This document shows, one piece after another, positions 5,193 to 46,700 of a stretch of 64,000 nt of DNA. The DNA is from Zygnema cylindricum. Its lineage: Eukaryota; Streptophyta; Zygnematophyceae; Zygnematales; Zygnemataceae. Under the pieces are notes generated by a model that saw only the letters and a program-made list of their open reading frames with translations, made no database searches and had not been told where the DNA came from. Both the position numbers and the translations under genes were made by a program. Position 1 is the first letter of the stretch. Each line of letters begins with the position of its first letter. The stretch is from the NCBI GenBank assembly GCA_037447655.1, contig JBBHKE010002029.1, positions 62,001 to 126,000 on the forward strand. Direction: 5' to 3'.

Positions 5193-5264
5193 CAAAAGAC
5201 AGTAAGAAAAATAGGTTAATAACAAGGTAACTAAACTATCTCATCAAGATGAACCACAAACTTA

Positions 5265-6836
5265 TGGAGAGGCGATAACTTGTCCAAAAAGAAACTGGTG
5301 GAAGACAGCCATCAATAAGGAGATGGCCTCAATTATGGCAGCCGATACTTAACAGCTGGTGGATTGTCCACCTAACCGAAAACCAATCGGTTGTAAGTGG
5401 GTTTTCAAATTAAAATTGAACCCAGATAACACAATCGAGCGCTACTAGGCCCGATTAGTGGCAAAGGGATTTACACAAAACGAGGGAATTGACTACGAGG
5501 AAACCTTTGCTCGGTGGTCGAATTTCCCTCCGTCCGCACACTTCTCAGCCTGGCAGCAGCGGAATACATGATAGTGCACCTGATGGACATCAAGATAGCC
5601 TTTTTGCATGGAGAATTGGAAGAGGAGATCTTCATGCGACAACCCGAAGGGTTTGTGGAGGAAGGAGAGGAGAGTAAGGTATGTCGGCTGATTAAATCTC
5701 TTTAAAGTTTGAAACAGGCGCCTCGACAGTGGAATAAGAAGCTTGATGAGTTTCTTACCGGTCTGGGATATATCCGGATCAGCTCAGATCACTCAATCTA
5801 TGTTTTCGAAGATGAGGAAGGTTTTGTATTTATTGCAATTTATGTTGATAATTTGCTTGTTTTAAGTAAATCAATGGAAAAAATTAATAAACTGAAAACC
5901 AATCTTAAGGGGAGATTTGAAATGAAGGATATGGGGGAAGCAAAATATATTTTGGGAATTCAAGTAGAGAGAGACCGAAAAAGAAAAATTATAAGATTGA
6001 CTCAAAATGAAGCTATAGGGAACATGCTTGAAAAATTTTAAATGGACAAAGCTAAAAGTTGTACAACTCCTATAGAATTGAAGAAGGGAAGTAAGGGGAG
6101 TGAGGAAGAAGGAGTCTTAGTCTTAAACGAGGAATTATCTCCTGAAGAACAGAATTTCATGCCGACTATTCCTTACAGACAAGTAGTGGGAAGTCTAATC
6201 TATTTTATAAATTGTACCCGGCCGGATTTAGCTGCAGCTGTAGGAGTGCTGAGTAGAAGTCTAAATACTCTGACTAACACGGATTGGGAGGCAGCTAAGA
6301 GAGTCCTTAGATATTTGATAGGAACTATGGATCTATGGTTGCATTTGGGTGGGGAGAACACTGACATCACTACTTGGAGTGATGCCAGTTATGGTGATGC
6401 TCCGATGAAGAGATGCACTTCTGGATATGTATTATATGTGGGTGATGGGGCTTGCTGTTGGAATAGCAAACAGCAAAAGGTTATTGCTCAGTCCACCATG
6501 GAGGCTGAGTATATGGCCTCTTGCTCTGCTGTAAAAGAATTGATGTGGGTCAAGTCTTTGCTTGGTGAGCTTGGTCACCTTAAGAGTGGTGTGCAGAAAA
6601 CATATTGTGATAATCAGGCAGCAATCGTTATTTCTGCCAATCCTAAATATCATTTTAAAGCCAAACACATGGACATCAGACTCAGCTTTGTTAGAGAAAA
6701 AGTAGAAAACAAAATAATCAGTTTAGAGTACCGACCAGATAGTGAGATGGTAGCAGATATGATGACCAAACCTGTGCCTTCCCCTAAGCTAATTTTCTGG
6801 AGGGAGAAGTGTTGTTTGAAATTACAGATTGACTAG
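5265..6836 (+). pseudogene. reverse transcriptase-RNase H of B1 (broken)
   Basis: RT begins with the [13 protein letters not shown] block (near 5397) and the GIDYEETFA block. The catalytic box YVDDLL reads YVDNLL (near 5845), so one catalytic Asp is lost. Stops at 5703 and 6039 interrupt the frame. From 6042 to 6836 a single frame of 264 codons covers the RT end and the whole RNase H: SLIYFINCTRPDL, DASYGDAP, MEAEYMASCS, DNQAAI and the ADMMTKPVPSPKL tail. This is one of the longest open Pol stretches among the older elements. The polypurine tract and 3' LTR follow. Confidence 0.88.
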
Positions 6837-8507: not shown

Positions 8508-9110
8508 TTAACCTAAAATCTACATGTCTATCCCAAAAGTTACGTGGCTTTCCACAATGTACCCCCCACTAGGAAAGGTTGAAACGGGTCGCATGTAATA
8601 CAATAGAAATATTTGAAGCAAAATTACTCCGTCGTCTAACTCTTGTTATGCGCGAAATAAAGTGCGTTCTGCTCAATTTGGTAAATAAAATGATTTTATC
8701 TAGCGAGGTGCACTCACTCCTATGTACTTTGAGGACCATACCGGTTCAAAATGGCTCGGAAATCCTTGGGAATATAAAGGTGTGTCGGAAACGCACATGG
8801 GCCTAATTGTTGTCGAGCGTGCCTGGGAAACATAGGGGAAGGGCCCACCGGCAAAAATATAGTGCATTAGGGTCTTAGAAACCGAGAGGTTTAGGCGAGA
8901 TGCCCGAGAAGGTGTGCATAGAAAACTTGCAATCCACCCGAAATGCTGACGCGATTCCGGATGCGTGACAATGCCTGTCAGTGTCCCTCTCTTCCTTGGG
9001 GATATGCATGGGTAATAATGAGGGAGCGAGTGAAAAGAGGAAAAAATACCATGTACCCCCCCAAATTCCCCCACCCTCTTAGTCCCGCGTAACTAAGAGG
9101 TTAAGAAAAA
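8508..9110 (-). other. 3' end of GD, probably untranslated region and LTR part
   Basis: About 600 bp with no convincing coding sequence, joining the PHD-like segment to the break with B0 at 8507. Two G-runs on the minus strand, each followed by TACAT (near 9045-9058 and 8560-8572), resemble polypurine tracts next to an LTR start. No repeat of this stretch occurs elsewhere in the window, so the LTR cannot be delimited. A 124-codon frame (9074-8700) resembles nothing I recognise and is treated as chance. Confidence 0.45.
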
Positions 9111-9338
9111 TTAGCCGCCAAATTCGCAGTCCCCATAGAACCACATATTTGCAGTTTGAGAGCGGGACTCCCAAGTTAGAGGCAGGCAAAAGTCATGCCA
9201 CCCTTGATGAGAGCGATCACACACCAACAAGAATCCGGGCAAAGAAAACACATTGCAAGCAGAGGAACACGGGTGTGGATCTACAAAGTAAGTGAGGTGG
9301 AAAATGGGTTTTTTTCCTCTAGCCCTCGTAGATGGCAA
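9111..9338 (-). pseudogene. GD PHD-like finger
   Basis: The minus-strand frame encodes a Cys-rich segment with the spacing of a plant homeodomain finger: C-SSA-C, then LLVCDRS, QGWHDFCLP and, at the end, MWFYGDCEF. The CD-x-x-H-x-GWH-x-x-C core and the final W-x-x-x-x-C are characteristic. PHD fingers read histone H3 tails. The Cys after CDR is Ser here and the first pair is spaced unusually, so this copy is probably not functional. It lies directly downstream of the integrase C-terminal domain, where chromoviruses carry a chromodomain, which suggests a role in choosing the insertion site. It could also be another zinc-binding fold, but the GWH signature argues for PHD. Confidence 0.68.
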
Positions 9339-9516
9339 AGAGCCACATTGATCTAATTCTCTTTAATTTTGCGGCCATCTTTCCCTTCCAAGGTCAAAAC
9401 CCCTTTGTTAGAGACCTCCGCTACTTTAAAAATCCCTTGTCCGGCTGAAATGTCCAAAGTGTCCTTCTTTTATTACATGCGATACACCAAATCCCCGGGC
9501 ATGAATCACCGTTGCT
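9339..9516 (-). pseudogene. GD integrase C-terminal domain
   Basis: Minus-strand reading gives FMPGDLVY, KKDTLDIS, GIFKVAEVSNKGVLTLEGKDGR and a final CHL. This is the small beta-barrel DNA-binding domain (GPF/Y-like region) that ends Ty3/gypsy integrases. Two adjacent stops interrupt it near 9475. The preceding residues are at 15866-15905, on the far side of element C; the TSD TTGCT (9512-9516 and 15866-15870) fixes the join. Confidence 0.7.
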
Positions 9517-10520
9517 TGCAATTCTGTGTCCTCCATTGGACTACAAAATACAGGAAGCCTCTAGATAGTATTTAACTAACCCACTTCAAGCCACAACTAC
9601 TGTTGCCCAAAAAGTCACACTCACAATTTGACTGCACCCTTGAGCAGCCTAGACTCCCCGGAGCGCGTAGCAAAAAAAATCACTGAAAACGGCCAACCAA
9701 CCGATAAGTTATGAGTCGGCAAAAATGCCAAGTTTATACAAACTCTCAAAGGGAGAGAGGTTCCTTTCTACCAAAATTCTCTAAGTCCTAAATCCCTCTC
9801 ACAACCCCTATCTATTGAAGTACGAACCAATTAGATCACTGTAGGGAATACAAAAGTACTATGGTCGATGTACTTTGTGTACGGCCCATGTACGGCAACG
9901 CCATTAAGTGGACGCGTGTCCACTTTTCACTTGTCCTTATGTTCGCCGGAATTCATGCGACCAAATGTCATCCCTCCGCGTGGCGCCACGTCATGCCACG
10001 TCTATAAACGCCAAAAGTGACCATTCTACGATCGCGGCATTGATGTATGCCGTCGGATCAGATTCAATATTAAATGTCCGCCGTCATAACAAATGTCCGA
10101 TTCATTTGTTTTCGTGCGAGATAATGTTCGCACTATATAATACTTGGTTCCATGTTCGTCAGTTCGAAATTCCGTTAATCCAATTTATACTCGTAACATT
10201 GTATAAATAATAATCAAACCATAATGTATTTCAACGGACTCCTACGACAGACTGGTTAGAGCTAACGGCTAAGCCGTGCTTTGCAGTTCAGAGGTTCGAG
10301 TCCTACCGGACTCAACCTTTTGTTGAGAGTGACATAAGTCACTCTTTAGCCCTGCCTGCTTAGGCTAGGACAGCCATGGCTCACCCACCCTCTCTATCCC
10401 TCAGTGACTACCACAAGTATGGTGGGAAGAGAGAGGAGGCGGAGGCAGGTTGTCCGTCTTTTTCTTATTTGTACTAAATTCAGACCTAGAAAATACCAAA
10501 TAAAACTACTAATTTCAACA
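9517..10520 (-). repeat. 3' LTR of C
   Basis: A 1004-bp LTR; on the minus strand it starts TGTTGAAATTAGTAG and ends GAATTGCA. It contains the plus-strand tRNA-like module 10236-10315 with box B GGTTCGAGTCC (10293-10303), a cluster of GTAC motifs near 9860-9895, CGTGGCGCCACG near 9980, and the hairpin row near 9640-9670. The polypurine tract (AATAAGAGGAG on the minus strand) lies at 10521-10531. Confidence 0.92.
10236..10315 (+). other. tRNA-like module of LTR C, antisense to the element
   Basis: The plus strand reads a box A-like GACTGGTTAGAGC and an exact box B consensus GGTTCGAGTCC (10293-10303), 44 bp apart, as in a tRNA gene. Inner stems such as ACGGC/GCCGT are present. The 5' and 3' ends do not pair as an acceptor stem. 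Further copies are at 15582-15661 and, in C', 57310-57388, where CTACGAC and GTCGTAG pair perfectly. Orientation is opposite to the element. Confidence 0.65.
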
Positions 10521-15865: not shown

Positions 15866-15870
15866 TTGCT

Positions 15871-16368
15871 GAGGGACATAATTTCCGCTCCTGCGTTGGG
15901 AATACTAAAGCTCATCCCTGTGCTGTGGAGCCTTTAAATTGCCTATAGCTAAAGGCATTTCCTGGTGAAATACCTTGGCCTTGTTGGCGATCAGCTTCTC
16001 CACAGTCTCGCGGTTGTCCATCTCCGGAAGTTCAACTACCTTAGCCGATGCAGCTCCAAAAATGATGGAATGTCGGCCGAAGAAAATGAAATAATGGCTA
16101 TATGAAAGGAGGGAGGCGTGCCTACTAAATCTGTATCCCATGGCAATCCAAGGCACCCGTTTGTTCCATTCCCCTAAATCCTCTTCTACTCCATATTTCC
16201 GTATTGACCGTTTCACTCTCTGTACGCACCTTTCGACCAAACCGTCGGCTTGGGGGTGGTCTCGGTTGGTCAACTGGTGGTCAATGAGGCACTTCTCTAG
16301 AAGGTTAAAATATTCTCTAGCAAACTCGGACACCTGATCAGTGAGAACTTTGGTCAGTGCTCTAAATT
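15871..16368 (-). pseudogene. GD integrase core, second half
   Basis: Minus-strand frame with VLTDQ (second catalytic Asp), EKCLIDHQLT, DHPQADGLVERCVQRVKR (catalytic Glu in GLVER), WIAMGYRFSRHASL and a final KAPQHRDEL. This is the second half of a Ty3/gypsy DDE integrase, which inserts the DNA copy into the genome. The N-terminal half lies at 22587-22936 beyond element A', and the C-terminal domain at 9339-9516 beyond C. The Glu motif is intact; the Gly expected after TDQ is Val. A stop follows HRDEL. Confidence 0.85.
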
Positions 16369-16373
16369 GGGAC

Positions 16374-22581: not shown

Positions 22582-22586
22582 GGGAC

Positions 22587-22936
22587 AGCACCGTCTTCAA
22601 GAATACGTTTGCGATTGTTTTGGATTCCTTCCGAGGGAGAACCACTTGTTCGATCCATTTGGAAAAGTGCTCAATCAATACCAATACAAAACGGTTTCCC
22701 CTCTAGCTGGTGGGAAGTGGTTGTATTAGATCTAATGACAGTCTGTAAAACATCCCCTGGATGGGGAGGGAGTTAAGTTCAGTTCCACCTTTTTTGTCAA
22801 AAGAAACTTTCATCTGGTCACAGAAAGGACACGTCTGACCACATGGTTGACCTAGGCCAGCAGCCCATGCCACCAATACGACCATGTGACCTTTGAGGTT
22901 GTCCGCTTCTGTGCGAAGTGCCTGCATTAATAGTGA
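22587..22936 (-). pseudogene. GD integrase, zinc motif end and first catalytic block
   Basis: Minus-strand frame from 22927 with CPFCDQMKVSFD (the last Cys pair of the zinc-binding domain), LPIQGMFYRLSLDLIQPLP (first catalytic Asp in SLDL) and, after a stop, GNRFVLVLIEHFSKWIE and KESKTIANVFLKTV. This is the classical Ty3/gypsy integrase order. The reading continues at 16373 and downward beyond A'; the H2C2 start is at 29305-29420 beyond D. One stop (near 22707) is the main defect here. Confidence 0.88.
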
Positions 22937-28300: not shown

Positions 28301-29304
28301 TGTGTCCTCTATTGGACTACAGAATACAGGAAGCCTCTAGATAGTTGTTAACTAGCCCACTTTAACCCACAGCCACTGCTAGCCAGGCAATCAAACTGAC
28401 AATCTGAATGCACCCATGTGGAGCTTGGACTCCCTTGAGTCCATTGGAAAAAAAATCCCTGACAACGCCCAACCAGGCGAAAAGTTATGAAGTAGTAAAA
28501 ATGCTAATTTGTATAAACTCTCAAAGGGAGAAGTGACTGCCTACCAAAATTTTCTAAGTCCTGATTCCCTCTAATAACTTCTATCTACTGAAGTACGGAC
28601 CAATCAGATTAGTGTACCGTACCAATAAATACTACTACCGGTGTACCTTTTGTACGGCCTATGTACGACAGGACTATTAAGCAAATAAGTGTCTCCTTTT
28701 CACTCGTCCGTACATTCCTCAGAATTCCTATGACCGAATGTCATCTCTCCACGTGGCTTCAGGTCATGCCACGTCACTAAACGCCAAAGTGACTACTCCG
28801 GGATTTCGGCGATGATGTGCGCCGTTGGATTTGCAGCGAGACGCAATTTTGGCCGTAATAAATACTTGCGCGATATTTGTTTCGTTGTCGAAACAAAATG
28901 CTTGGTATTCGTTCTGTATTGGTATATTCATAAAATTGTATCCATGTACGCCGTAAACAGTTTTAGTTAAATGGATTTGCTCCTTCCTAAATATATATAT
29001 ATCTATCATATACTATAGCATTTAGCATTGGTCCTAGTCTAGTAGGATAAAGGTGACCACTATCGGCGAGCTTGACGAAGCGCAGGTGCTGGGATCGTCA
29101 GGTATAATTTTAGAAGCCTTAAAAAATATCAGCCTGTTGAACTAAGGCAGCCATGGATCAACCACTCTCTCTATCCTTTAGTGACTACAAGAAGTATGGG
29201 GGCTACAAAGAGGAGGTGTAGGCAGGATGTCTCTCCTTTTTCTTTTTCTTTTATACTAACATTTTAAACCTAGAAAATACTCTAGAAATCTATTAGTTTC
29301 AAAA
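28293..29304 (-). repeat. 5' LTR of D
   Basis: A 1012-bp copy of 22942-23953. The tRNA-like module lies at 29025-29105 on the plus strand with the same truncated box B. The outer end reads TTTCAAAA instead of TTTCAACA. Confidence 0.92.
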
Positions 29305-29563
29305 AGACGAACAATGAGGGTTTCATGATCAGCTAGAGGAGGAACTACTTTCCTCATACCATCGGCCCATTTTCTGAGAAGAATGCCTTGGTCCCATTTA
29401 TACGCCGCCATCCGGGTATGAACCTGTGAGAAGTGAATTCCGACCAGGTGGGAAAGAGGGGAACCTCTCTGATAGACCTAAAGGAATCGGGGTCATTCCA
29501 AATATCCTTGCGGCCGGCTCCAATGGGAGCCTGCCGCTCTACGTCTGCAGCAAAAGTTGCCAC
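29305..29563 (-). pseudogene. GD integrase N-terminus (H2C2-type region)
   Basis: Minus-strand frames give QAPIGAGRKDIWND, then AYKWDQGILLRKWADGMRKVVP and ADHETLIVRLF. The Y-W-D-x-G-x-L and VVPP-x-x-(D/E)R-x-x-LIxxLH pattern precedes the H2C2 zinc motif in Ty3/gypsy integrases. The His pair itself is lost at the D insertion site. The protein continues at 22936 downward. Two frame changes and one stop occur in 260 bp. Confidence 0.72.
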
Positions 29564-29850
29564 TTCCCCTTAAAGTCCAGTCCATCTTCCTAGGTTCCAC
29601 TACCGTCAATGCTTCCGATGGCCAACCCCAAAGGGAGATGTCGAATTGTAGTTCTACCTGTGGATGTGTCCCTTGCTCAGCTACTAAAATGCTACAAGTG
29701 ACAACTTCACCAGAGCTGCCCTGATTTGAGCCTTCGCTCCCCCCCACTGAGGAAACTCGTGGGTTCAGTATTCTCTCTGAATGTAATTTGCTAAATTTTT
29801 CCCTTCTTGCCTCTCTCCCCCCCTCAAGCTATAGAGTTGCTTGCATGGCC
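29564..29850 (-). other. GD spacer between methyltransferase and integrase
   Basis: About 290 bp on the minus strand with an open frame (29747-29493) of no recognised family; it includes a Gly/Ser-rich start and a basic end. In a standard Ty3/gypsy element RT and RNase H would lie before the integrase, but there is too little sequence for them here and no YxDD-type or RNase H motif was seen. Confidence 0.5.
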
Positions 29851-30895
29851 AATAACTGGGAGCTTGAAGGTATGTTGCTGGTGAATTTGAAGACAGTTGG
29901 CTAGAGAATGCCAGAGAATGTTGCAGCACCCATGAAATTGCATTCAAATCCATACTTTGCCCAATTAAACTACACCTTTTTGAGGCCGAGACTCTTGGTC
30001 TTGTAGTGGTTGCCGGTTGAAATCCCATTCCTTGTTCTTGTTCCTCAATACTTGGTGCCGTCGAAGTAGGGTTCGTACTGTCAAAGATCTTTCCTAGTGC
30101 GCCTTCCTAGTATACATGGCTGTTAGGGAAAGATACCATGGTCGGTTGGGCCCTTCCTAGATACCTAAGTTTATTGCAACCGAAAAAGGGTGTTTCGTCA
30201 ACTGTGGTCACAAGGGTGGCCATTCGCCCTTTTTCGAGAATCTGTTGAACTGTGATGTTGGGATCCGGAACCTTCATTTTCAACAGTTGTTCGAGTACTG
30301 GAAGTGGAGCCAAATGGTCAAATAAGCCTGAACTCGGTGGGCTCTTGATCCGACATGAGCTACATCAAACACTATGGGAGTCCCCGGAACCTTGGTCACT
30401 TTGTTCTAGCTGTTGACTACCTGTTTCCATTTATCATATGTGGGGTGAACATTTTCCAAGATGTACCCCATTGGTGTGTCCTGGCGTCCCTGTAACCCTG
30501 TTATCAGTCGAGTCATTTGAAAAAATGTTGTGCTACGAACATCTTCGTGTCCCTTGCCCTGTCCCGCAAACAAATACACTTGGCAAGGCCATCCAGCGAT
30601 CACCTGGTCTACCGTTCCAAGCTTCTCCAAATGTGAATCCGTGATGTTGTCTAAATTTTAGGGAAGCGTACGGTGAGAGTTAGACATGGCACACATCGGG
30701 AGTTGCTGTGGGTAAAGTTGGTAAAGCTGGTGCAGTCGATACTCACTAACTGCACGGGCTTCCGGCTTCCGTGTAAATCTTGACTAGCGAGTACGTTACT
30801 ACTTGATATCCAGCTATTAGGACGACATCTAGGTCGGAACTAATGCCACAGAATAGCGAGAGAATCCGCAGTCCTGAGGGCGGAATTTCCAGTGT
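29851..30895 (-). pseudogene. GD C5-cytosine DNA methyltransferase (broken)
   Basis: Minus-strand frames show the methyltransferase motifs in canonical order: motif I (SAM binding) as RILSLFCGISSDL near 30850; motif IV with the catalytic Pro-Cys in VIAGWPCQ (PCQ at 30580-30588) followed by AGQGKGHEDVRS; motif VI as ILENV (30448-30456); motif VIII as VGSRAHR (near 30340); and motif IX/X as MGFQPATTT and LIGQSMDLN (near 29950). These enzymes transfer a methyl group from S-adenosylmethionine to C5 of cytosine. A frameshift separates motif I from IV, a stop (near 30405) separates VI from VIII, and two more frame changes follow. Motif I has Ser for the usual second Gly. It lies between the GD protease and integrase in the same strand, so it is part of the element. 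A partial second copy is at 32467-32971. Confidence 0.83.
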
Positions 30896-31349
30896 CACCA
30901 CTGGTCAGTTAAAGTCCTTCCCTATGTTAGGAACCGTTGGGAGTTCAGGCTGGATGAACCTTGCTGTCCCGGATGATATGGTTGCAAAGCTTGTGTCCAC
31001 TCTCCGCCGAAGGGAAGGATGGCCTTCTGTACCAATCTTTTTTTATACTCCCTTTCCCACCGCTTGGAAATGGGGAATTGCTAGATAGAATTCGCGATAT
31101 CGGTGGAATATTTGAACAACTCGGAAGGGGTGGATGCAGAGTACACAGGATAGCATCCAGTCACAAGAATAGTTGTTTTACCCCAATTCCATAAATCCAA
31201 GGAGACCACCACTTTTGTGCACTCGGGATCCTCCGGGTCTGAAACTGTAACTTGTTCTTTCTAGATGCTCTACTCCTGTTCAACCTTGTCCACGTAGCCA
31301 TACCCAACAAAATTTCAAATTGTTTACCTTCCACCGCAAGGAACGGGAG
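30896..31349 (-). pseudogene. GD linker between protease and methyltransferase
   Basis: Minus-strand frames contain DPEDPECTKVVVSLDLWNWGKTT and VTGCYPVYSASTPSELFKYSTD, then lose the frame. No known domain is recognised and no RT motif is present. The same segment occurs again at 37471-37800 with few changes. Confidence 0.5.
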
Positions 31350-31922
31350 CTATATTTGTACGTATTGTCCTCTGTCATCTGCGAATTCGATTTCCATTGC
31401 TTTAATGATGTCATATACTGGTTGGCTCCTAGTGCTGACCGTACTTTGACATATTTCAGTGGGATTGATTTTTAGCGTGATTTCCTCGGGCATTTTCTGT
31501 AATGCTGAGGTGGTTATGAGGTTAGGAAGGGCTCTGGTATCCACCACTGCATCTTGATACCCGCCGTATCCATTAAGTTTAAAATTGCCTATCATGTTAA
31601 GAATAAGAGCCACCGACAGGGCCTTATAATCTCTATCTGCCATAAAAAATTTCGGTTCTGCCGACATGAAGACAGTCTTGGGTGGTTTTGCAAACGTGAC
31701 TCTTTCCCTCCTGGTGTGAATCTCTTTTTCTAGTGCATGAATGAGGATTTCTTTGGGCAAACTGTGGGAGGAATTTAGCGTTTTGACGTGGGTCAAGGCG
31801 AAGGGCATCAGGTGTTGTACTAACATAATTGTCGATTTTGAGGGAGGGTGAGGTTTGGGCGATGAAATGGGTGAGTCCTCGTCTTTCGATTTCTCCGGTT
31901 TCTGAAACTCTGAGACCTCCAT
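31350..31922 (-). pseudogene. GD protease, fused to the solo-LTR start codon
   Basis: An open frame of 190 codons. The first seven (MEVSEFQ) come from the B-type solo LTR at 31903; the rest is GD. The middle reads AVVDTRALPNLITTSALQKMP, the retropepsin active-site region in which DTG has become DTR (31530-31544). The end reads QPVYDIIKAMEIEFADDRGQYVQI, as in gypsy proteases. Loss of the active-site Gly suggests no activity. The LTR insertion supplies promoter, leader and ATG in frame, so a chimeric transcript is possible. Confidence 0.75.
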
Positions 31923-32466
31923 AAGTCCTCAGAGTGGACAGCTTCCAAGAAGCCTCTAGGATAATCCTGACCCCTTTGTGTTTAAGCAAAATAACTGCCA
32001 CCCTGGCAGACAAAAACTCTGACCAACTTCACCCCTGTGAAGACAAGACTCCCCTGAGTCGATAGCAAAAAGAATCTCTGAATTTGCTCCCCTGAGCAGT
32101 AAGTTATGGAGGGTCAAAGTTGACCTTTTGTACAGAAGCTCTCTGGGAGAGAGGGTCCTATCTTCTAATTTTTCTAAGTCCTATCTCTCTCACAGACTCT
32201 ATCTACTGATGTACGGAACCAATCAGAATTGAGTTCCGTACGCAAAAGTACAGCTGCCGGTGTACTTTATGTACGGATATTGTACGACATGGCCAAAATG
32301 TCGACACATGTCAAATCCGGATTCGGTGTCATAATCTCCGGAGTTTCCACAATCCAACGGAATTTCGCCACGCGTCATCCGATGTGGCGATGGCCACAAA
32401 CCGCCGAAATCTTCCTCCGCGATCTCGGCGCTAATCCCGGCCGTCCGATTAAATTCGGCTTTAATC
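31903..32466 (-). repeat. B-type solo LTR, inner part
   Basis: Minus-strand B LTR from its end (GAGTTTCA at 31903) back to about the middle (TTAATCG at 32466), with target duplication GTTTC (31898-31902; partner 38399-38403). It keeps hairpins, GTAC cluster, and CGCCACGCG in place of the CACGTGGC motif. The rest of the LTR start is at 38272-38398; about 350 bp with the tRNA-like module are missing and replaced by a GD copy plus element E. Confidence 0.88.
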
Positions 32467-32971
32467 GTCGAGTCATTTGAAAAAAATGTTGTGACTACGA
32501 ACATCTTCGTGTCCCTTGCCCTGTCCCGCAAACAAATACACTTGGCAAGGCCATCCAGCGAATCACCCTGGTCTTACCGTTCCAAGCTTCTCCAAATGTG
32601 ACATCCGTGATGTTGTCTAAATTCTAGGGAAGCGTACGGTGAGAGTTAGACATGGCACACATCGGGAGTTGCTGTGGGTAAAGTTGGTAAAGCTGGTGCC
32701 AGTCGATACTCACTAACTGCACGGCGCTTCCGGCTTCCGTGTAAATCTTGACTAGCGAGTAAGTTACCTACTTGATATCCAGCTATTAGGACGACATCTA
32801 GGTCGGAACTAATGCTACAGAATAGCGAGAGAATCCGCAGTCCTGAGGGCGGAATTTCCAGTGTCACCACTGGTCAGTTAAAGTCCTTCCCTATGTTAGG
32901 AACCGTTGGGAGTTCAGGCTGGATGAACCTTGCTGTCCCGGATGATATGGTTGCAAAGCTTGTGTCCACTC
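32467..32971 (-). pseudogene. second copy of GD methyltransferase segment
   Basis: A copy of about 30504-31008 with scattered one-base insertions and deletions. Its motif I frame keeps LRILSLF but reads CSIS, and the PCQ region is broken by three inserted bases. Some of its bases restore frames lost in the first copy (for example near 32720), so the two copies decayed separately. It is cut at 32971 by element E and resumes at 37471. Confidence 0.82.
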
Positions 32972-34275
32972 TGTTAATATTTGGGTATTTTCTAGGTCTT
33001 TATTAGATAGAAAAGGGTAGAGGCAATCTGCCTCTCACTCCCTTCTCCAAGCCCCCACACTTGTCGTAGTCACTGAAGGCTGGAGAGGGAGCTAGAGCCA
33101 TGGCTGCCTAAGCTCTTCAGAGAGACAGGAGTAGATAAATATGTTTACTAAAAAGATGTTTGACGGATCCAGGAATTGATCCCGGTACCTACCGGCCGTC
33201 AAACATCCCGCAGTCGTTAGCATTTTCCATTTAGTCTAGGACTAGTACTGGTACGTATAGGGTTTGATAAATATCTAAATAGTTAAAGGTAGGATTTTCC
33301 ATTTAACTGGGTTACGGTATATAGGGCATAGAAACAGTTGTACTTTTAGTACCGGACGAAATAAATAGTACGGACATTTATTTCGACGGTCCGTTTTAAT
33401 TACGATGTCAATCGGACGGCCGTGGTTAGCGCCGACATCACGGAAAGTAAAATTGGCAGTTTGTAAACGCCGCCACTCTGGATGACACGTGGCAACATCG
33501 TACGGGATTACGGAATTTCCGGAACGGCAGAAAACAAATCAGGGAGTGACAAATGTCGCACTCTGGCGACATCGTACAATGTACATACAGAAAGTACTCC
33601 GGCACTTGTACTTTCTTGTACAGTACCATTTTTATGACGCGGCATGACCTGGCGCCACGTGGAGGGATAAGATTTGGAGGTAGGAATTCCGGAGAATACA
33701 AGAGCGAATCCGGATAAGACATTTGTTGACTTATTAGCCATGTCGTACGATGTCCGTACAAAAGGTACACCGGCATTTGTACCTTTATGTACTATACAGT
33801 AATGTGATTGGTCCGTACCTCAGTACTAGAGGGTTTAGAGAGGGGTTTAGGACATAGAATATTTCGGGTAGGTAGCTGACTCTCCCAGAGAGCACCTTGT
33901 ATAAATGGCAAACTTTGGCAAGCCATAACTATCAATTCAGTTGACCAAATTCAGTGATTCTTGTTGCTGCGGACTCAGGGGAGTCCAGGCTACACAGGGG
34001 TGTAGTCGGTCAGAGTTTTTGCCTGCCTAGGTGGCTGCATTTCTAAGGGAAAGTCAAAGTGGGGAATGTTATCCTATACTCATATTCTAACTTTGCATTC
34101 TGTAGTGAAACTGAGCACACAGAGAGTCTTACTTCACAGGGGTGAAGCTGTAATGGGGTTCTGATTGTCAAGGGGTCAATCATTTGGGTTTATATTAACT
34201 TGGAGTCGGCACTATGTAGATTAGCTTCCTTTGGACCTGCGAATTCTGTGTGGCAATGGAGCCCATAGAATTTCA
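32972..34275 (+). repeat. 5' LTR of E
   Basis: Starts TGTTAATATTTGGG, ends GAATTTCA. In order: GAGCCATGGCT near 33094, antisense tRNA-like module with an 11-bp inverted repeat (33156-33166/33196-33206), ACACGTGGC at 33485-33493 and CCACGTGG at 33655-33662, two GTAC clusters (33580-33625, 33745-33796), ATTGG near 33808, TATAAAT at 33900-33906, and hairpins GGACTC-AGGG-GAGTCC (33971-33986), CTACAC-AGGG-GTGTAG (33990-34005) and CTTCAC-AGGG-GTGAAG (34132-34147). Confidence 0.94.
33156..33270 (-). other. tRNA-like module of LTR E
   Basis: On the minus strand: a box A-like GACTAAATGGAAAATGC, then GACTGCGGG, and box B-like GGGATCAATTCCT. The T-arm-like stem is enclosed by a perfect 11-bp inverted repeat ATGTTTGACGG (33156-33166) and CCGTCAAACAT (33196-33206). 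A second copy with the same repeat is at 36346-36460. Confidence 0.58.
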
Positions 34276-36133
34276 GGTTATGGGCCCACCATCTAGGGTG
34301 CCTATGTTTGATGGAACAGACTTCACTTATTGGGAGTTCACGATGGAGGGATTGCTTTTCGAGAAGCACTTGTGGGGAATTGTTTCGGGACAAGTGAGGT
34401 GTCCGCCACCTGGCTTTGGTGGAGCTCACTATGGAGAATCATCTGGGGCTGCCCAGAAAACCAACCGGATTTCAGATGCAACGGAAGGTGAAGGGAAAAT
34501 CATTACCGTGGAAGGGGAAATAGGGGAGAAGGATAAAGGGACACCTATGGTGAGGGGAGCTAGGCTCTCGACTACGGTTCCACTTGTGGGGGTTATAACT
34601 GAACCAAAAACCGAAGAAAATGATAGAAAAATTTGGGAATATAAAAACACTATAGCAAAACATCTCATACTTAGATATGTGTCTAAGTCTATAGCTATCA
34701 CTCTTTTAAATCTAACCAAGTCGTCGGAAATTTGGGACACACTAATTCAGATTTATAAGAGTGAGACTATACAGAGGGAGCAGTTAGTAAGACAAGAGAT
34801 AGAGGCCTATGTTTATAAAGGCGGTAGCATGACAGAGTTTTGCAATGATATTGCTGTGTTATATGTTGAGCTTGCTAGTGCGGGATATGTAGAATCTGAG
34901 GAGAGAAAGATTAATACACTAATCATGAAGCTCCCATATGAGTACGAAGACATCATTTACCGTATGCAGGGAATGGATGTCTCCTCATGGACTTGGAGCA
35001 TTACCATGGGGATAATTCTTGTGAGGGAAAGCACCTTGGAGCTTCGTAGGGGAAGTGAGAGGGTGACTGCATTTACAGCTGGTGGTGACTGGCGGAAGCG
35101 TGATGTGAGGAACGGCGGTGACGAGCGGAAGCGTGATGAGAGGAAGAAAGACAAAGGTAAACCTTATCGGAACTTTGGTGGAAAGAGAGGGAGAAGAAAA
35201 GAAAGGGGAGCTTTGAAACAAGGGGTTTGCTTCGCTTGTAGGAAACCGGGTCACTATATGGAGGAGTGTCCTCGTTTGGAAGAACTTAGAAGTTGGAGTG
35301 TGAATGAGGAGGAAGAAGGGGAAGAGGAGAAAGAGGATGAAAAAATCTTGGAGCTTCTTCACATCGGTAGAATGGAGAAGAGAGAAAAGTACACAGAAAT
35401 TCCACGAAGGCAACAGTGTGCTTTTGGAGGTATAAGGGAAGTAAAGAGAGAGGAGGTACTTGAGGATGTCGAGGAGTGTAAAGTGTATGACTTAGAAATG
35501 AGAAACTCAGAACTAGGATCCATAAGTGAAAACGGTAAAAATAAAATTAATGAGGATAATTCTATAGGTATTTTGGAATTAGAAAACTGGTCGGAAAGGG
35601 AGACTTCAACGGATTCCGAGGAAAGGGGAGAAGTGAAACAAGAAGGGGTTTTAAAGGATAAGGGAGAAGAGGAATATTTAATGAAAGGTTTAGGGGAGGT
35701 GAAATATTTATTGGGAATAAATTTAGAAAGTGAGAGTGGAAAGATCTCCATGGAAGAGAGTGAGGAAAGTTCATGTTTTAGGGGTAATGGGTTTGAAATC
35801 ACTAAAGGGAGTGATGATATTTATGAAGGTGTGCCTGTAAAAGGGTTAGCCTCAGGATGTGTGTTGCAGATTGGAGATGGGGCTGGCTGTTTGAATTGCA
35901 AGAGGGAAATCAGATTTTGTGTGGATGGAAAAGAGATGAGGTGGATAATATCTTCGCTCGGATTTTTGATAAGTGGGATGCTAAATGAAATGTGTGATGC
36001 AATTATTATTTCATTTCATCTAATGCATTGTTTTAAATACGAAAGCATATTTCATAAGTTATATAAAAGGAAAAAGAAAAGAAAAAGGAAAAAGGGGAGG
36101 GAGTGTTTTGTTTATTTTGTTTGTAATAGTTGA
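34250..36133 (+). CDS. Gag protein with shrunken Pol remnants (element E)
   Basis: A single open frame of 627 codons. It begins inside the 5' LTR (MAMEPIEF) and passes through the primer site (VMGPPS). Residues 25-50 hold YWEFTMEGLLFEKHLWGIV and 185-230 the helical Gag core with YVYKGGSM and MKLPYEYEDII. A basic Arg/Lys stretch (281-320) precedes the zinc knuckle CFACRKPGHYMEEC (Cys327, Cys330, His335, Cys340). After an acidic stretch come short in-frame traces of Pol: IPRRQQCAFGG (384-394), GLGEVKYLLGINLE (480-493) from RT, and ASGCVLQIGDGAGC (535-548) and CDAIIISF from RNase H. Protease, integrase and the RT core are absent. The C-terminus is very basic (KRKKKRKRKKGR, 606-617), like a nuclear localisation signal. 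It should bind RNA and form particles but needs enzymes from another element. Frame retention across several deletions suggests selection, though recent arrival could also explain it. Confidence 0.9.
   Translation: MAMEPIEFQVMGPPSRVPMFDGTDFTYWEFTMEGLLFEKHLWGIVSGQVRCPPPGFGGAHYGESSGAAQKTNRISDATEGEGKIITVEGEIGEKDKGTPMVRGARLSTTVPLVGVITEPKTEENDRKIWEYKNTIAKHLILRYVSKSIAITLLNLTKSSEIWDTLIQIYKSETIQREQLVRQEIEAYVYKGGSMTEFCNDIAVLYVELASAGYVESEERKINTLIMKLPYEYEDIIYRMQGMDVSSWTWSITMGIILVRESTLELRRGSERVTAFTAGGDWRKRDVRNGGDERKRDERKKDKGKPYRNFGGKRGRRKERGALKQGVCFACRKPGHYMEECPRLEELRSWSVNEEEEGEEEKEDEKILELLHIGRMEKREKYTEIPRRQQCAFGGIREVKREEVLEDVEECKVYDLEMRNSELGSISENGKNKINEDNSIGILELENWSERETSTDSEERGEVKQEGVLKDKGEEEYLMKGLGEVKYLLGINLESESGKISMEESEESSCFRGNGFEITKGSDDIYEGVPVKGLASGCVLQIGDGAGCLNCKREIRFCVDGKEMRWIISSLGFLISGMLNEMCDAIIISFHLMHCFKYESIFHKLYKRKKKRKRKKGRECFVYFVCNS
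34276..34290 (+). other. primer-binding site of E
   Basis: GGTTATGGGCCCACC immediately after the LTR. The next base (A) extends the complement to plant initiator tRNA-Met to 16 nt. Confidence 0.85.
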
Positions 36134-36149
36134 AAGGAAGTAGACTAGA

Positions 36150-36161
36150 AAATAAGGGGAG
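36150..36161 (+). other. polypurine tract of E
   Basis: AAATAAGGGGAG directly before the 3' LTR start TGTTAATATT. Confidence 0.85.
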
Positions 36162-37465
36162 TGTTAATATTTGGGTATTTTCTAGGTCTTTATTAGATAG
36201 AAAAGGGTAGAGGCAGTCTGCCTCTCACTCCATTCTCCAAGCCCCCACACTTGTCGTAGTCACTGAAGGCTGGAGAGGGAGCTAGAGCCATGGCTGCCTA
36301 AGCTCTTCAGAGAGACAGGAGTAGATAAATATGTTTACTAAAAAGATGTTTGACGGATCCAGGAATTGATCCCGGTACCTATCGGCCGTCAAACATCCCG
36401 CAGTCGTTAGCATTTTCCATTTAGTCTAGGACTAGTACTGGTACGTATAGGGTTTGATAAATATCTAAATAGTTAAAGGTAGGATTTTCCATTTAACTGG
36501 GTTACGGTATATAGGGCATACAAACAGTTGTACTTTTAGTACCGGACGAAATAAATAGTACGGACATTTATTTCGACGGTCCGTTTTAATTACGATGTCA
36601 ATCGGACGGCCGTGGTTAGCGCCGACATCACGGAAAGTAAAATTGGCAGTTTGTAAACGCCGCCACTCTGGATGACACGTGGCAACATCGTACGGAATTA
36701 CGGAATTTCCGGAACGGCAGAAAATAAATCCGGGAGTGACAAATGTCGCACTCTGGCGACATCGTACAATGTACGTACAGAAAGTACTCCGGCACTTGTA
36801 CTTTCTTGTACGGTACCATTTTTATGACGCGGCATGACCTGGCGCCACGTGGAGAGATAAGATTTGGAGGTAGGAATTCCGGAGAATACAAGAGCGAATC
36901 CGGATAAGACATTTGTTGACTTATTAGCCATGTCGTACGATGTCCGTACAAAAGGTACACCGGCATTTGTACCTTTATGTACTATACAGTAATGTGATTG
37001 GTCCGTACCTCAGTACTAGAGGGTTTAGAGAGGGGTTTAGGACTTAGAATATTTCGGGTAGGTAGCTGACTCTCCCAGAGAGCACCTTGTATAAATGGCA
37101 AACTTTGGCAAGCCATAACTATCAATTCAGTTGACCAAATTCAGTGATTCTTGTTGCTGCGGACTCAGGGGAGTCCACGCTACACAGGGGTGTAGTCGGT
37201 TAGAGTTTTTGCCTGCCTGGGTGGCTGCATTTCTAAGGGAAAGTCAAAGTGGGGAATGTTATCCTATACTCATATTCTAACTTTGCATTCTGTAGTGAAA
37301 CTGAGCACACAGAGAGTCTTACTTCACAGGGGTGAAGCTGTAATAGGGTTCTGATTGTCAAGGGGTCAATCATTTGGGTTTATATTAACTTGGAGTCGGC
37401 ACTATCTAGATTAGCTTCCTTTGGACCTGCGAATTCTGTGTGGCAATGGTGCCCATAGAATTTCA
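36162..37465 (+). repeat. 3' LTR of E
   Basis: A 1304-bp copy of 32972-34275. The tRNA-like module (minus strand) is at 36346-36460 with the inverted repeat 36346-36356/36386-36396. TATAAAT lies near 37090. All sequence features of the 5' copy are kept. Confidence 0.94.
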
Positions 37466-38271
37466 CACTCTCCGCCGAAGGGAAGGATGGCCTTCTGTAC
37501 CAATCTTTTTTGATACTCCCTTTCCCACCGCTTGGAAATGGGGAATTGCTAGATAGAATTCGCGATATCGGTGGAATATTTGAACAACTCGGAAGGGGTG
37601 GATGCAGAGTACACAGGATAGCATCCAGTCACAAGAATAGTTGTTTTCCCCCAATTCCATAAATCCAAGGAGACCACCACTTTTGTGCACTCGGGATCCT
37701 CCGGGTCTGAAACTGTAACTTGTTCTTTCTAGATGCTCTACTCCTGTTCAACCTTGTCCACGTAGCCATACCCAACAAAATTTCAAATTGCTTACCTTCC
37801 ACCGCAAGGAACGGGAGCTATATTTGTACGTATTGTCCTCTGTCATCTGCGAATTCAATTTCCATTGCTTTAATGATGTCATATACTGGTTGGCTCCTAG
37901 TGCTGACCGTACTATGACATATTTCACTGGGACTGATTTTTAGCGTGATTTCCTCGGGCATTTTCTGTAATGCTGAGGTGGTTATGAGGTTAGGAAGGGC
38001 TCTGGTATCCACCACTGCATCTTGATACCCGCCGTATCCATTAAGTTTAAAATTGCCTATCTTGTTAAGAATAAGAGCCACCGACAGGGCCTTATAATCT
38101 CTATCTGCCATTAAAAATTTCGGTTCTGCCGACATGAAGACAGTCTTGGGTGGTTTTGCAAACGTGACTCTTTCCCTCCTGGTGTGAATCTCTTTTTCTA
38201 GTGCCTGAATGAGGATTTCTTTGGGCAAACTGTGGGAGGAATTTAGCGTTTTGACGTGGGTCAAGGCGAAG
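37466..38271 (-). pseudogene. second copy of GD linker and protease
   Basis: Repeats about 31004-31805. The frame 38264-37818 (148 codons) again shows AVVDTRALPNLITTSAL with DTR for DTG. It ends abruptly at 38271 where B-type LTR sequence resumes. The DTR change is shared by both copies, so it predates the duplication. Confidence 0.82.
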
Positions 38272-38398
38272 GGCTCTCCACTTTCTCAGTGACTGCGACA
38301 AGTTTGAGAGTTGGAGAGAGAAGTTAGAGATAGACTGCCTCGACTTCTATATTTCTTTTCAGACCTAGAAAATACTAATAAAACCATTAGTTTCTACA
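38272..38398 (-). repeat. B-type solo LTR, outer end
   Basis: A 127-bp piece, minus strand TGTAGAAACTAATGG with TTTTCTAGGTCTG, forming the start of the solo LTR whose other end is 31903. It ends TCTACA at 38398 and is followed by the duplication GTTTC (38399-38403). Confidence 0.88.
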
Positions 38399-43649: not shown

Positions 43650-45227
43650 AGTTTATGGAGAGGTGATGATTTGTCCAGAAAGAAACCGGTGGAAGACAGC
43701 TATCAATGAGGAGATGGCCTCAATTATGGCACCCGATACTTGGGAGCTAGTGTATTGTCCATCTAACCGAAAACCAATCGGTTGTAAGTGGGTTTTCAAA
43801 TTAAAACTGAATCCAGATAACACAATAGAGCGCAACAAGGCCCGATTAGTGGCAAAGGGATTTACACAAAAAGAGGGAATTGACTACGAGGAAACCTTTG
43901 CCCCAGTGGTCAGATTTTCCTCCGTCCGCATACTTCTCAGCTTGGCAGCAGCGGAAGACATGGAAATGCACCAGATGGACATCAAGACAACCTTTTTGCA
44001 CGGAGAATTGGAAGAGGAGATCTTCATGCGACAACCCGAAGGGTTTGTGGAGGAAGGAGAGGAGAGTAACGTATGCCGGATGATTAAATCTCTTTATGGT
44101 TTGAAACAGGCGCCTCGACAGTGGAATAAGAAGCTTGATGAGTTTCTTACCGGTCTGGGATATATCCGGATCAACTCAGATCACTCAATCTATGTTTTCG
44201 TAGATGAGGAAGGTTTTATATTTATTGCAATTTATGTTGATGATTTACTTATCTTAAGTAAATCTATGGAAAAAATTAATAAACTGAAAACCGATCTTAA
44301 GGGGAGATTTGAAATGAAGGATATGGGGGAAGAAAAATATATTTTGGGAATTCAAGTAGAGAGAGACCGAAAGTGAAAAATTATAAGATTGACTCAAAAG
44401 AAGCAATAGGGAACATGCTTGAAAAATTTCAAATGGATAAAGCTAATAGTTGTACAACTCTAATGGAGTTGAAGAAGGGAAGTGAGGGGAGTGAGGAAGG
44501 AGGAGTCATAGTCTTAGACGAGGAATTATCTCTTGAAGTACAAAAGTTCATGCAGACTATTCCTTACAAGCAAGTAGTGGGAAGTCTAATCTATTTTATG
44601 AATTGTACCCGGCCAGATTTAGCTGCAGCTGTAGGAGTGCTGAGTAGAAGTCTAAATGCTCACACTAAGAGGGATTGGGAGGCAGCTAAGAGAGTCCTTA
44701 GATACTTAATACGAACTAGGGATCTATGGTTGCATTTGGGTGGGGAGAATACTGATATCACTACTTGGAGTGATGCCAGTTATGATGATGCTCCGATGAG
44801 GAGATGCACTTCTGGATATGTATTATATGTGGGTGATGGGGCTTGCTGTTGGAGTAGCAAACAGCAAAAATTTATTGCTCAGTCCACCATGGAGGCTGAG
44901 TATATGGCCTCTTGCTCTGCTGTAAAAGAATTGATGTGGGTCAAGTCTTTGCTTGGTGAGCTTGGTCACCTCAAGAGTGGTGTGCAGAAAATATTTTGTG
45001 ATAATCAGGCAGCAATCGCTATTTCTGCCAATCCTAAACATCATTTCAAAGCCAAACACATGGACATCAGACTCAGCTTTGTTAGAGAGAAAGTAGAAAA
45101 TAAAATAATCAGTTTAGAGTACCGACTAGATAGTGAAATGGTAGCAGATATGATGACCAAACCTGTGCCTTCCCCTAAGCTATTTTTCTGTAGGGAGAAG
45201 TGTGGTCTGAAATTAAAGATTGACTAG
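43650..45227 (+). pseudogene. reverse transcriptase-RNase H of B2
   Basis: The RT frame 43663-44376 (237 codons) is almost complete: [53 protein letters not shown] and the intact YVDDLLIL box (near 44230). A TGA at 44374 and a frameshift lead to the RNase H frame 44373-45227 (284 codons) with SLIYFMNCTRPDL, DASYDDAP, MEAEYMASCS, DNQAAIAIS and the ADMMTKPVPSP tail. The Gly of DASYGDA is Asp. It is the best preserved RT in the window. Confidence 0.9.
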
Positions 45228-45240
45228 AAAATAAGGGGAG

Positions 45241-46286
45241 TGTAGAAATTAATGGTTTTTAAAAGTATTTTCTAGGTCAGAAATAAGAAAGAAGCCGAGG
45301 CAGTCTACCTCTAACTTCTCTCTCTAAATCTCAAACTTGTCGCTTTCACTGAGAAATTAGAGAGGAAGCTAGAGCCATGGCTACCTAGGCTATCCTGAGG
45401 TTTATGGGAAATATATATTTGGGGTTTATTTAGTAAAAATATATGCGGCGGCCACAAGATTTGAACCTGGTACGTGCCGGACGGCAAGATGCCGGTAGCA
45501 AGTAACCTTAGCCGTTAAGTCTTGAAGTAGTGTTACGTGAGATATAGTTTGATAACTATTTAAACATTAATACGTAGGATAAATCATTTAACTATAATTG
45601 TTTACGGGATACATAGAACCAGTAGTGTAAAAGTACGAATTGCGGTACGGATAAAAAATTTAATACCGCGCATTGATTTCGTAAGCGAAACAAATACCTT
45701 GCATGTATTTATTACGGCTCCGATCAAATGTGAATTTAATCGGACGGCCAGAATTAGCGCCGAGATCTCGGAAGAAGAATTCGGCCGTTTGTGGGAATCG
45801 CCACATCGGATGACACGTGGCGAAATTACATTGGATCGGGGTATCTCTGGAAATTTCGGCACCGAATTTGGATATGACATGTGTCGACATTTAGTCCATG
45901 TTGTACAATTTCCGTACATAAAGTACACCGGCGACTATACTTTTGTGTACGGAGGAGAAATCTGATTGGTTCCGTACATCAGTAGATAGAGTCTGTGAGA
46001 GAGATAGGACTTAGAAAAATTAGGAGATAGGACCCTCTCTCCTAGAGAGCTTCTGTACAAAAGGTCAACTTTGACCCTCCATAACTTACTGCTCAGGAGA
46101 GCAAATTCAGAGATTCTTTTTGCTATCGACACAGGGGAGTCTTGTCTTCATAGGGATGAAGTTGGTTATAGTTTTTGTCTGCCAGGGTGGCAGTTATTTT
46201 TGCTGAAACACAAAGGGGTCAAGGTTATCCTAGAGGCTTCTTGGAAGCTATCCACTCTGAGGACTTATGGAGGTCTCAGAGTTTCC
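45241..46286 (+). repeat. 3' LTR of B2
   Basis: A 1046-bp copy of 39842-40887, preceded by the polypurine tract AATAAGGGGAG. The tRNA-like module is at 45445-45537 on the minus strand. CATAACTTAC near 46081 is followed by the hairpin row. Confidence 0.93.
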
Positions 46287-46700
46287 GGATTCCTGTCGTG
46301 GATTGCTTGACTGGCACTTTAATTGTTGAGAGTTGCCTGTCTTGTTGGTCCGAACGAATTCGTTAGCGACATAATATTTTGTGGCCATGGCTGGTGTGTC
46401 AATGGTAGACAGTTTGGTCTTATGACAGAGGCTCGAGAGGCGGTTGAACAGCGTCTGGAGGGTTTCATTTTTCAAACATCGGAATTCCGTGAATTCATTG
46501 ATTGCAATTTCGTTCCTTTCGGTATAAAGGAGTCTTCAAGCGTCTAGTAGAGTGGTGCAAGGAGTTGGGTTGGCCACCATCCGGGTAGTTGCTTCAGCGG
46601 CCACTACTGCCTGCATATGGTTAACACAGGCTCTACCTTGGGCCTCCAAATTCATGTCTATACTGAAAGTGGCGGTAACATGGACTGCTTTGGTGGCAGC
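46287..46700 (-). pseudogene. GD gag, more 5' part
   Basis: Minus-strand frames read AATKAVHVTATFSIDMNLEA, then LKNETLQTLFNRLSSLCHKTK, TPAMATKYYVANEF and LKCQSSNPRQES. It is a helical Gag-like region; the next residues lie at 39841 downward beyond B2. The N-terminus is not present, because F cuts in at 46701. Confidence 0.6.

Follow-up and report, generated by a model that had tools for sequence, protein, structure and literature searches.

The closest described counterpart of the element reported here is KnitGypsy-Dnmt3 from the charophyte Klebsormidium nitens, which, in the parts of de Mendoza et al. (2018, PMC5890265) consulted here, is presented as a Gypsy retrotransposon with Dnmt3 in its Pol, DIRS-like repeats and a ratio of nonsynonymous to synonymous changes (Ka/Ks) below 0.2. 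The same parts describe SymbioDIRS-Dnmt3 of Symbiodinium, which methylates CG in yeast. We analysed a stretch of 64,000 nucleotides from the charophyte Zygnema cylindricum (contig JBBHKE010002029.1, positions 62,001–126,000; "the window" below, on which all coordinates of its element are given, minus strand), in which an initial annotation had noticed a Ty3/gypsy element carrying a C5-cytosine DNA methyltransferase. We conclude with good confidence that the window holds an old, dead copy of a Ty3/gypsy-type lineage with a Dnmt3-like methyltransferase inside Pol and, following the integrase, a PHD finger. It is very probably of the same kind as KnitGypsy-Dnmt3, so that the initial annotation was right to call it another such element.

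As far as the consulted text of PMC5890265 goes, the Zygnema lineage resembles KnitGypsy-Dnmt3 in being a charophyte Gypsy element with a Dnmt3-like domain in the Pol frame, the trait by which we recognise this kind, and in its DIRS-like repeats and purifying selection. It differs in its host, Zygnema instead of K. nitens, the comparison being with a published description and not with a sequence; in its PHD finger, a domain that the main text of PMC5890265 does not mention; and in that its ends and target duplications are described here, for which the consulted parts give no account in KnitGypsy-Dnmt3. SymbioDIRS-Dnmt3 likewise has a Dnmt3-like domain in Pol and repeats in the order A-coding-B-A-B, but it has a tyrosine recombinase instead of a DDE integrase, lives in a dinoflagellate and, according to the same text, captured its methyltransferase independently. 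Chromoviruses, Ty3/gypsy elements with a C-terminal chromodomain (PMC3605345, consulted in part), also place a module resembling a chromatin reader after the integrase, which here is a PHD finger instead. The name KnitGypsy was not found in the other papers searched, and the portions of the literature searched contained no case of a methyltransferase-bearing gypsy element from Zygnema and did not contradict the other suggestion of the initial annotation, that the element is the first seen in this host; the titles and opening lines of abstracts surveyed contained neither split-repeat nor PHD-bearing Gypsy elements.

The methyltransferase of the window copy is decayed and is encoded at 29768–30904 on the minus strand, spread over two frames. 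The motifs named in the initial annotation (LRILSLF, AGWPCQ, ILENV, GSRAHR, MGF and LIGQSMDLN) are present near the place it gave and in canonical order. We take LRILSLF, AGWPCQ, ILENV, GSRAHR, PTMVSFPNSHVY and LIGQSMDLN to be motifs I, IV, VI, VIII, IX and X, respectively. When ten pieces of the window were scanned against Pfam, the 83 amino acids (aa) encoded at 30409–30657 matched PF00145 (E=1.1e-8, 35.4 bits, cut-off 22), so that the methyltransferase profile match asked for by the initial annotation exists; the remaining nine gave no score at cut-off. Against the NCBIfam model dcm the same piece reached E=5.5e-12, under that model's cut-off. The damage amounts to four stops and two frame changes across three aligned stretches. 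The domain comprises the following pieces:

30749–30904, minus strand: piece with motif I (LRILSLF), 67.5% identical to residues 21–100 of Pol in the relative L011
30409–30657, minus strand: motifs IV (AGWPCQ) and VI (ILENV), matched by PF00145 (E=1.1e-8); best other match in the genome 82% identical
30283–30405, minus strand: motif VIII (GSRAHR), by motif reading and alignment
30110–30364, minus strand, other frame: target-recognition region and motif IX (PTMVSFPNSHVY), by motif reading and alignment
29768–30106, minus strand: end with motif X (LIGQSMDLNAISWVLQ; MGF, LIGQSMDLN), 65% identical to L011 Pol residues 252–418

Relatives were sought in the 352.8-Mb assembly of the same genome (2689 contigs). 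PF00145 scored 123 of 782 candidates, all 123 above cut-off, and 26 of these rows have an open frame of at least 500 aa; looking for intact copies, as the initial annotation suggested, thus yields relatives with long intact frames. The 83-aa piece of the window scored 150 of 987 candidates (itself included) with 57–100% identity. Twenty loci were fetched from the PF00145 matches, mostly for their long frames or high scores. In one of them, L009, one open frame spans 2395 aa, and in it a weak zf-CCHC match is followed by DNA_methylase, RVT_1, RNase H, Integrase_H2C2, rve and PHD; L010, L011 and two frames of L018 keep this order as far as they extend (five frames from four loci in all). The methyltransferase shares one frame with reverse transcriptase (RT), RNase H and integrase in L009 and L011 and with RT and RNase H in L010, while in L018 the methyltransferase frame is followed by a separate frame bearing RT, RNase H and integrase. 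By tblastn, methyltransferase, RT, RNase H, integrase and PHD finger were all found in 13 of the 20 loci, always in that order. The order common to the relatives is CCHC, protease (weakly matched), methyltransferase, RT, RNase H, integrase and PHD finger, and the succession RT-RNase H-integrase typical of Ty3/gypsy elements is present in the frames of L009, L011 and L018 as well as in those 13 loci. The PF00145 match and these frames bear out the initial identification of a Ty3/gypsy element with a C5-cytosine methyltransferase.

Among the 20 copies two clades can be told apart, clade A (L009, L010, L012, L013, L015–L020, L025 and L027) and clade B (L011, L014, L022, L023 and L026), with L021, L024 and L028 outside both but closer to B; the window element is nearest to clade B. 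The lineage is old, the methyltransferases of the two clades being about 41% identical, and in this genome some of it looks young. Trees of the methyltransferase and of the RT, built for the 17 copies that have both, give the same two clades and nearly the same subgroups. For six clade-A methyltransferases (15 pairs), the ratio of nonsynonymous to synonymous substitution rates (dN/dS) was measurable in seven pairs, at 0.06–0.18, four of these with dS above 2; in the other eight dS was saturated and dN was 0.12–0.21. All six clade-B pairs gave 0.13–0.37. Two of the clade-A copies and one of the clade-B copies used contain one stop each. RT evolves more slowly (dN 0.03–0.06 at saturated dS in clade A), and the methyltransferase appears, from these comparisons, to have been under purifying selection since before the A/B split, less tightly than RT.

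A profile of eight natural copies found DNMT3A as its best match among PDB sequences (4e-19), then DNMT3B, HaeIII (5e-9), DNMT2 (2e-7), HhaI and DRM2 (3e-7), and by this measure the domain is Dnmt3-like. It differs from DNMT3A in having PCQ or ECQ instead of PCN in motif IV, and the scan of the five frames reported neither an ADD nor a PWWP domain. Motifs I, IV with PCQ, VI with ENV, VIII, IX and X follow one another in the window pieces and in clade B. Motif IV reads ECQ in all 12 clade-A rows and PCQ in the ten other readable rows, the window piece included; the copies retain the catalytic Cys as well as Glu in motif VI and Arg in motif VIII. We know of no other occurrence of ECQ as a catalytic motif. 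It is found in L009 (methyltransferase at 4743–5729), L012, L016 and the other clade-A loci, and the three copies of this clade in which both repeats were read have near-identical repeats. A close prokaryotic or viral source was sought with two short patterns in each scan and not found: none of 32 matches in prokaryote contigs was a relative, and the 51 matches in viral contigs yielded one locus (L041). The latter lies on an 81-kb IMG/VR contig and is an ordinary PF00145 C5-methyltransferase with 43% identity over query residues 83–138.

Terminal repeats and the route of integration

Flanks were obtained for six elements: C1344, C829, C1915, C1374, C544 (locus L011) and C2577 (locus L018). The first of these runs A1 (85514–86444), coding region, B1 (94737–94979), GC, A2 (94981–95911), B2 (95912–96154), with A1 and A2 100% and B1 and B2 99.6% identical; the plan A-coding-B-A-B thus takes the place of the two equal terminal repeats that flank the coding region of a usual Ty3/gypsy element. 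It is shared by C829, C1915 and the clade-B element C1374, i.e. by four of the six, with repeats 99.4–100% identical within C1344, C829 and C1915; in C1374 the A repeats are 97.8% identical and an insert lies beside B1. The elements start with TGTC and end with GACA, and 4-bp target duplications (TTGG, AAGG, CCCT, AGGT and GTGG) flank all five clade-A copies in which both ends were read, so that TG...CA ends together with a short target duplication, as in Ty3/gypsy elements, are found in every one of these. The slices of C449 and C1156 did not reach the 5' end, and in the window copy neither feature is legible. With at most one mismatch allowed, the 20-base B1-A2 junction of clade A has 287 matches in the genome, compared with a single one for its reversed control, and reads GACA-GC-TGTC, an internal palindrome. 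In nine elements fetched from both clades and from the L021 type, GACAGCTGTC occurs with a G-rich tract 134–269 bases upstream, and a purine tract directly precedes B1 in all four elements with a defined B.

The joint between A2 and B2 was examined in 39 copies, namely the six with flanks and 33 others chosen for their perfect junction; for the latter, slices were taken at guessed places, and in one of the two sets most slices missed the joint. It was readable in 14, no two of which are identical, the variation consisting of bases added or lost. All seven joints of the C1344-like group differ from one another, as do those of C829 and C1915 (96.3% identical over 9.6 kb) and of C228 and C449 (92%). 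The sole near-identical pair, C1344 and C1407 (99.9% over 7.2 kb), has strongly different joints. Variation at this joint was seen in L030, L036, L037 and L039 and in slices among L042–L075.

We lean towards a circular route of integration. Since the purine tract lies directly before B1, plus-strand DNA should start at B, and the 5' repeat ends with A; reverse transcription would then yield B-GC-A, coding region, B-GC-A. Ligation of the two ends of this product would form a circle, which the integrase would open at the internal GACA-GC-TGTC, dropping GC, and insert with a 4-bp duplication. The loss of these two bases parallels retroviral end processing. Joined ends and one cut in a palindrome would give exactly the genomic form A-coding-B-GC-A-B, and the A2-B2 joint would be a fresh ligation scar in each copy.

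Several observations count against this route or against the generality of the repeats. No A-B-A-B repeats were found in the flanks obtained for C544 and C2577, and the clade-B element C1374 has TG...CA ends and no target duplication. In the four copies inspected, the sequence following A1 contained no recognisable tRNA-type primer site, and a search for tRNAs in the fetched loci found none. Joints could be read in only 14 of 39 copies; those of C17 and C451 are a single base apart and may be one and the same, and other differences may be later mutations, as most copies differ elsewhere too. C1407 (L010, L054, L074) has an A2 shorter by 226 bases and lacks the C1344-like 5' part, so that a later deletion could account for its joint.

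The alternative is that the A2-B2 joint is inherited through the full-length RNA and mutates afterwards, the DNA being integrated in linear form and the odd ends arising from unusual reverse transcription. The divergence of several percent elsewhere in most compared copies and the single-base difference between C17 and C451 agree with this, as does the element end CACGACA, seen in five of nine slices scanned for it and not in the other four. However, none of the 14 joints is identical to another, C1344 and C1407 differ strongly, and in all nine elements where it was found the G-rich tract lies 134–269 bases upstream of the junction and not beside A2. We hold an inherited joint with linear integration to be unlikely, though with enough in its favour to keep it in view beside the circular route.

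The enzymes of the polyprotein and their possible roles

The purifying selection described above suggests that the methyltransferase is useful to the element. Since RT and integrase would be part of the same polyprotein, the most direct option is that the methyltransferase enters the particle with them and methylates the element's own new DNA before or at insertion; we would give this an even chance. A copy methylated in this way would resemble host chromatin, or be quietly held rather than destroyed. Alternatively, it may shelter the element from being sensed by the host, help it to live at peace with host silencing, or have a task that does not involve DNA.

Against an active enzyme kept in step with its element stand four points. 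Methyltransferase activity is here a prediction from sequence; the ECQ of clade A could mean weak or altered chemistry; L028 takes different positions in the methyltransferase and RT trees; and the catalytic domain of KnitGypsy-Dnmt3 showed no methylation in yeast, a result that its authors call inconclusive (PMC5890265, consulted in part). The two points on ECQ and on the yeast assay also speak for the idea that the domain, at least in the ECQ clade, has given up DNA methylation and serves RNA methylation, DNA binding or the structure of the particle. The retained catalytic Cys, motif VI Glu and motif VIII Arg speak against it, as does the purifying selection on the domain, and we regard such a loss as doubtful, slightly more so than the inherited joint.

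The PHD finger forms the C-terminus of Pol (8925–9119 in L009), and its nearest PDB sequences are the fingers of PHF12, BAZ2B, WSTF, KDM5-type proteins and PHF21A. Readers of unmodified H3K4 are common among such fingers. The resemblance suggests a chromatin-guided choice of insertion site, and the polyprotein would then bundle a DNA writer with a histone reader, as host DNMT3 does. In clade B the finger is weaker (L011: E=2.4e-4, 21.5 bits, cut-off 24). A fuller scheme, in which a circularly replicating Gypsy element has a Dnmt3-like enzyme acting on the circle and a PHD finger of the unmodified-H3K4 type choosing the site, with the ECQ clade as its young branch, is offered tentatively and may well prove wrong. 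According to the parts of PMC9915684 consulted, the genome of Zygnema cf. cylindricum SAG 698-1a (359.8 Mb in 3,587 scaffolds, N50 213.9 kb, 29.8% Copia and 5.9% Gypsy) exceeds the other Zygnema strains at least 9-fold in the size of its PHD gene family; genes of PHD-bearing transposons might contribute to this reported expansion.

The arrangement of the repeats also raises the question of whether these are Gypsy elements at all. DIRS and PAT retrotransposons have split direct repeats like those found here, and differ in their enzyme and in target duplications. A DIRS-type element, with a tyrosine recombinase and with the B1-A2 junction as template for closing a circle, would account for A-coding-B-A-B, which is the DIRS layout as described in the consulted parts of PMC5890265. 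Integrase_H2C2 and rve are present, however, no tyrosine recombinase was matched in the five frames scanned, and the TG...CA ends and 4-bp target duplications also speak against it. As to the enzyme a DIRS origin is rejected, and as a whole we find it very improbable.

The decayed copy in the window

Pieces of the window were compared with L011 singly, by blastn and tblastn, and not joined. They are colinear with it in the order 46454–46286, 39841–38403, 31902–29571, 29569–29298, 22837–22583, 16372–15866, 9517–9302 and 9326–9114, and by tblastn they match residues 1–512 and 1019–1525 of its 1525-aa frame with 45–86% identity depending on the segment; one weak tblastn row (28%, plus strand 44095–44415, inside a copia element) was left out. 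Apart from the methyltransferase, the features are:

46286–46454, minus strand: 5'-most recognised piece, gag-side frame (residues 1–57 of L011 frame 2189–2956), tblastn 67–78% identity
38403–39841, minus strand: gag-side 5' part, blastn 77–81% to L011, L014, L022, L023 and L026, tblastn 67–77% over residues 56–256
32464–38274, minus strand: second copy of the duplicated segment, split by a copia-like element (repeats 32972–34275 and 36162–37465), by self-comparison
31350–31928, minus strand: open frame at the protease place, no Pfam match, counterpart L014:3477–4313
30503–31806, minus strand: duplicated segment, repeated at 32464–32972 and 37466–38274 with 97.5% and 98.8% identity
29571–29864, minus strand: linker after the methyltransferase (Pol 403–512), 54% identity, its end being the edge of the RT-RNase H deletion
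29298–29569, minus strand: segment after RNase H up to the integrase start (Pol 1019–1109), 72–74% identity
22583–22837, minus strand: integrase piece (Pol 1141–1225), 78% identity, blastn 79–81%, no Pfam match
15866–16372, minus strand: integrase core piece (Pol 1225–1393), 75% identity, no integrase Pfam match
9302–9517, minus strand: end of the integrase region (Pol 1392–1463), 78% identity, 4 stops
9114–9326, minus strand: decayed PHD finger (Pol 1455–1525), 65% identity, PHD 16.4 bits, E=0.0092, below cut-off 24
9068–9080, minus strand: purine tract preceding repeat B, by eye against C1374
8811–9067, minus strand: terminal repeat B1, ending in CTCGACA, limits by eye; 8880–9174 matches the right end of C1374 at 75–78% (blastn)
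8510–8808, minus strand: decayed start of terminal repeat A2, interrupted by a copia-related stretch, by eye

A blastn search of the window with the A repeat of C1374 gave no match, and the gag-side frame 2189–2956 of L011 has no Pfam match. RT and RNase H are missing from the window copy, L011 residues 513–1018 having no counterpart. At the break L011 position 6095 jumps to 7606 and the flanking matches overlap by 8 bases at 29564–29571, from which the loss seems to be an internal deletion. This is why the methyltransferase appears between protease and integrase, as the initial annotation had placed it: the placement holds for the window copy, but in the relatives RT and RNase H follow the methyltransferase. 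The retropepsin-like protease read at 31902–31350 is where a protease would be expected, but has no Pfam match, and its L014 counterpart reaches only 22.3 bits with Asp_protease_2, below the cut-off of 24.3. The integrase pieces were recognised rightly in so far as they are 72–78% identical to the corresponding part of L011, yet 22583–22837, 15866–16372 and 29298–29471 gave no integrase match in Pfam; the PHD finger, which the initial annotation proposed to check, is likewise recognisable by its identity to L011 and not by its profile score.

The second partial copy of the methyltransferase region (32464–32972 and 37466–38274) had not been listed before. The 1.3-kb direct-orientation duplication sits within a copia repeat fragment (31902–32468 and 38274–38398), and between the repeats 32972–34275 and 36162–37465 lies a 637-aa open frame (34220–36133), probably the gag of the copia-like element. 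Self-comparison of the window reveals stacked copia-type elements, e.g. with repeats 9517–10518/14861–15863, 22942–23948/28293–29299 and 39842–40884/45241–46283; the label copia is a reading of open frames and not of profiles. Where L014 and L011 both have C, the window copy has changed to T at 62 of 289 CG, 79 of 406 CHG and 128 of 1186 CHH sites, a pattern that fits past CG and CHG methylation of the plant style, as seen without a control element for comparison. This reading is weakened by changes to A or G at the same sites, which also peak at CHG (42/406, compared with 19/289 at CG and 60/1186 at CHH).

The broken domain and the heavily nested surroundings could, in the window alone, be taken for a host methyltransferase gene or retrocopy lying beside or within a gypsy element through nested insertion, but we reject this as scarcely credible, because relatives carry the domain in one unbroken frame with RT, RNase H, integrase and PHD finger (2395 aa in L009, 1525 aa in L011) and the same clades come out of the methyltransferase tree and the RT tree. 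The separate host gene that the initial annotation had considered was not encountered among these relatives, in an analysis that included no dedicated search for host genes and no joining of exons.

Significance of the lineage

The kind of element, a Dnmt3-carrying gypsy, is already known; new here, apparently, are the PHD finger, the ECQ clade and ends that hint at an unusual route of integration. Circular integration, if true, adds a route that was not found for Gypsy elements in the portion of the literature surveyed. Because of such elements, genome surveys may also count too many genes for PHD fingers and DNA methyltransferases. Cytosine methylation is a weapon of the host against transposons, yet a large and long-lived transposon lineage keeps a methyltransferase under selection. 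With a second charophyte host and hundreds of matches in one genome, the role of the enzyme becomes testable: the methylation of young copies can be set against that of old ones, and that of one deep clade against that of the other.
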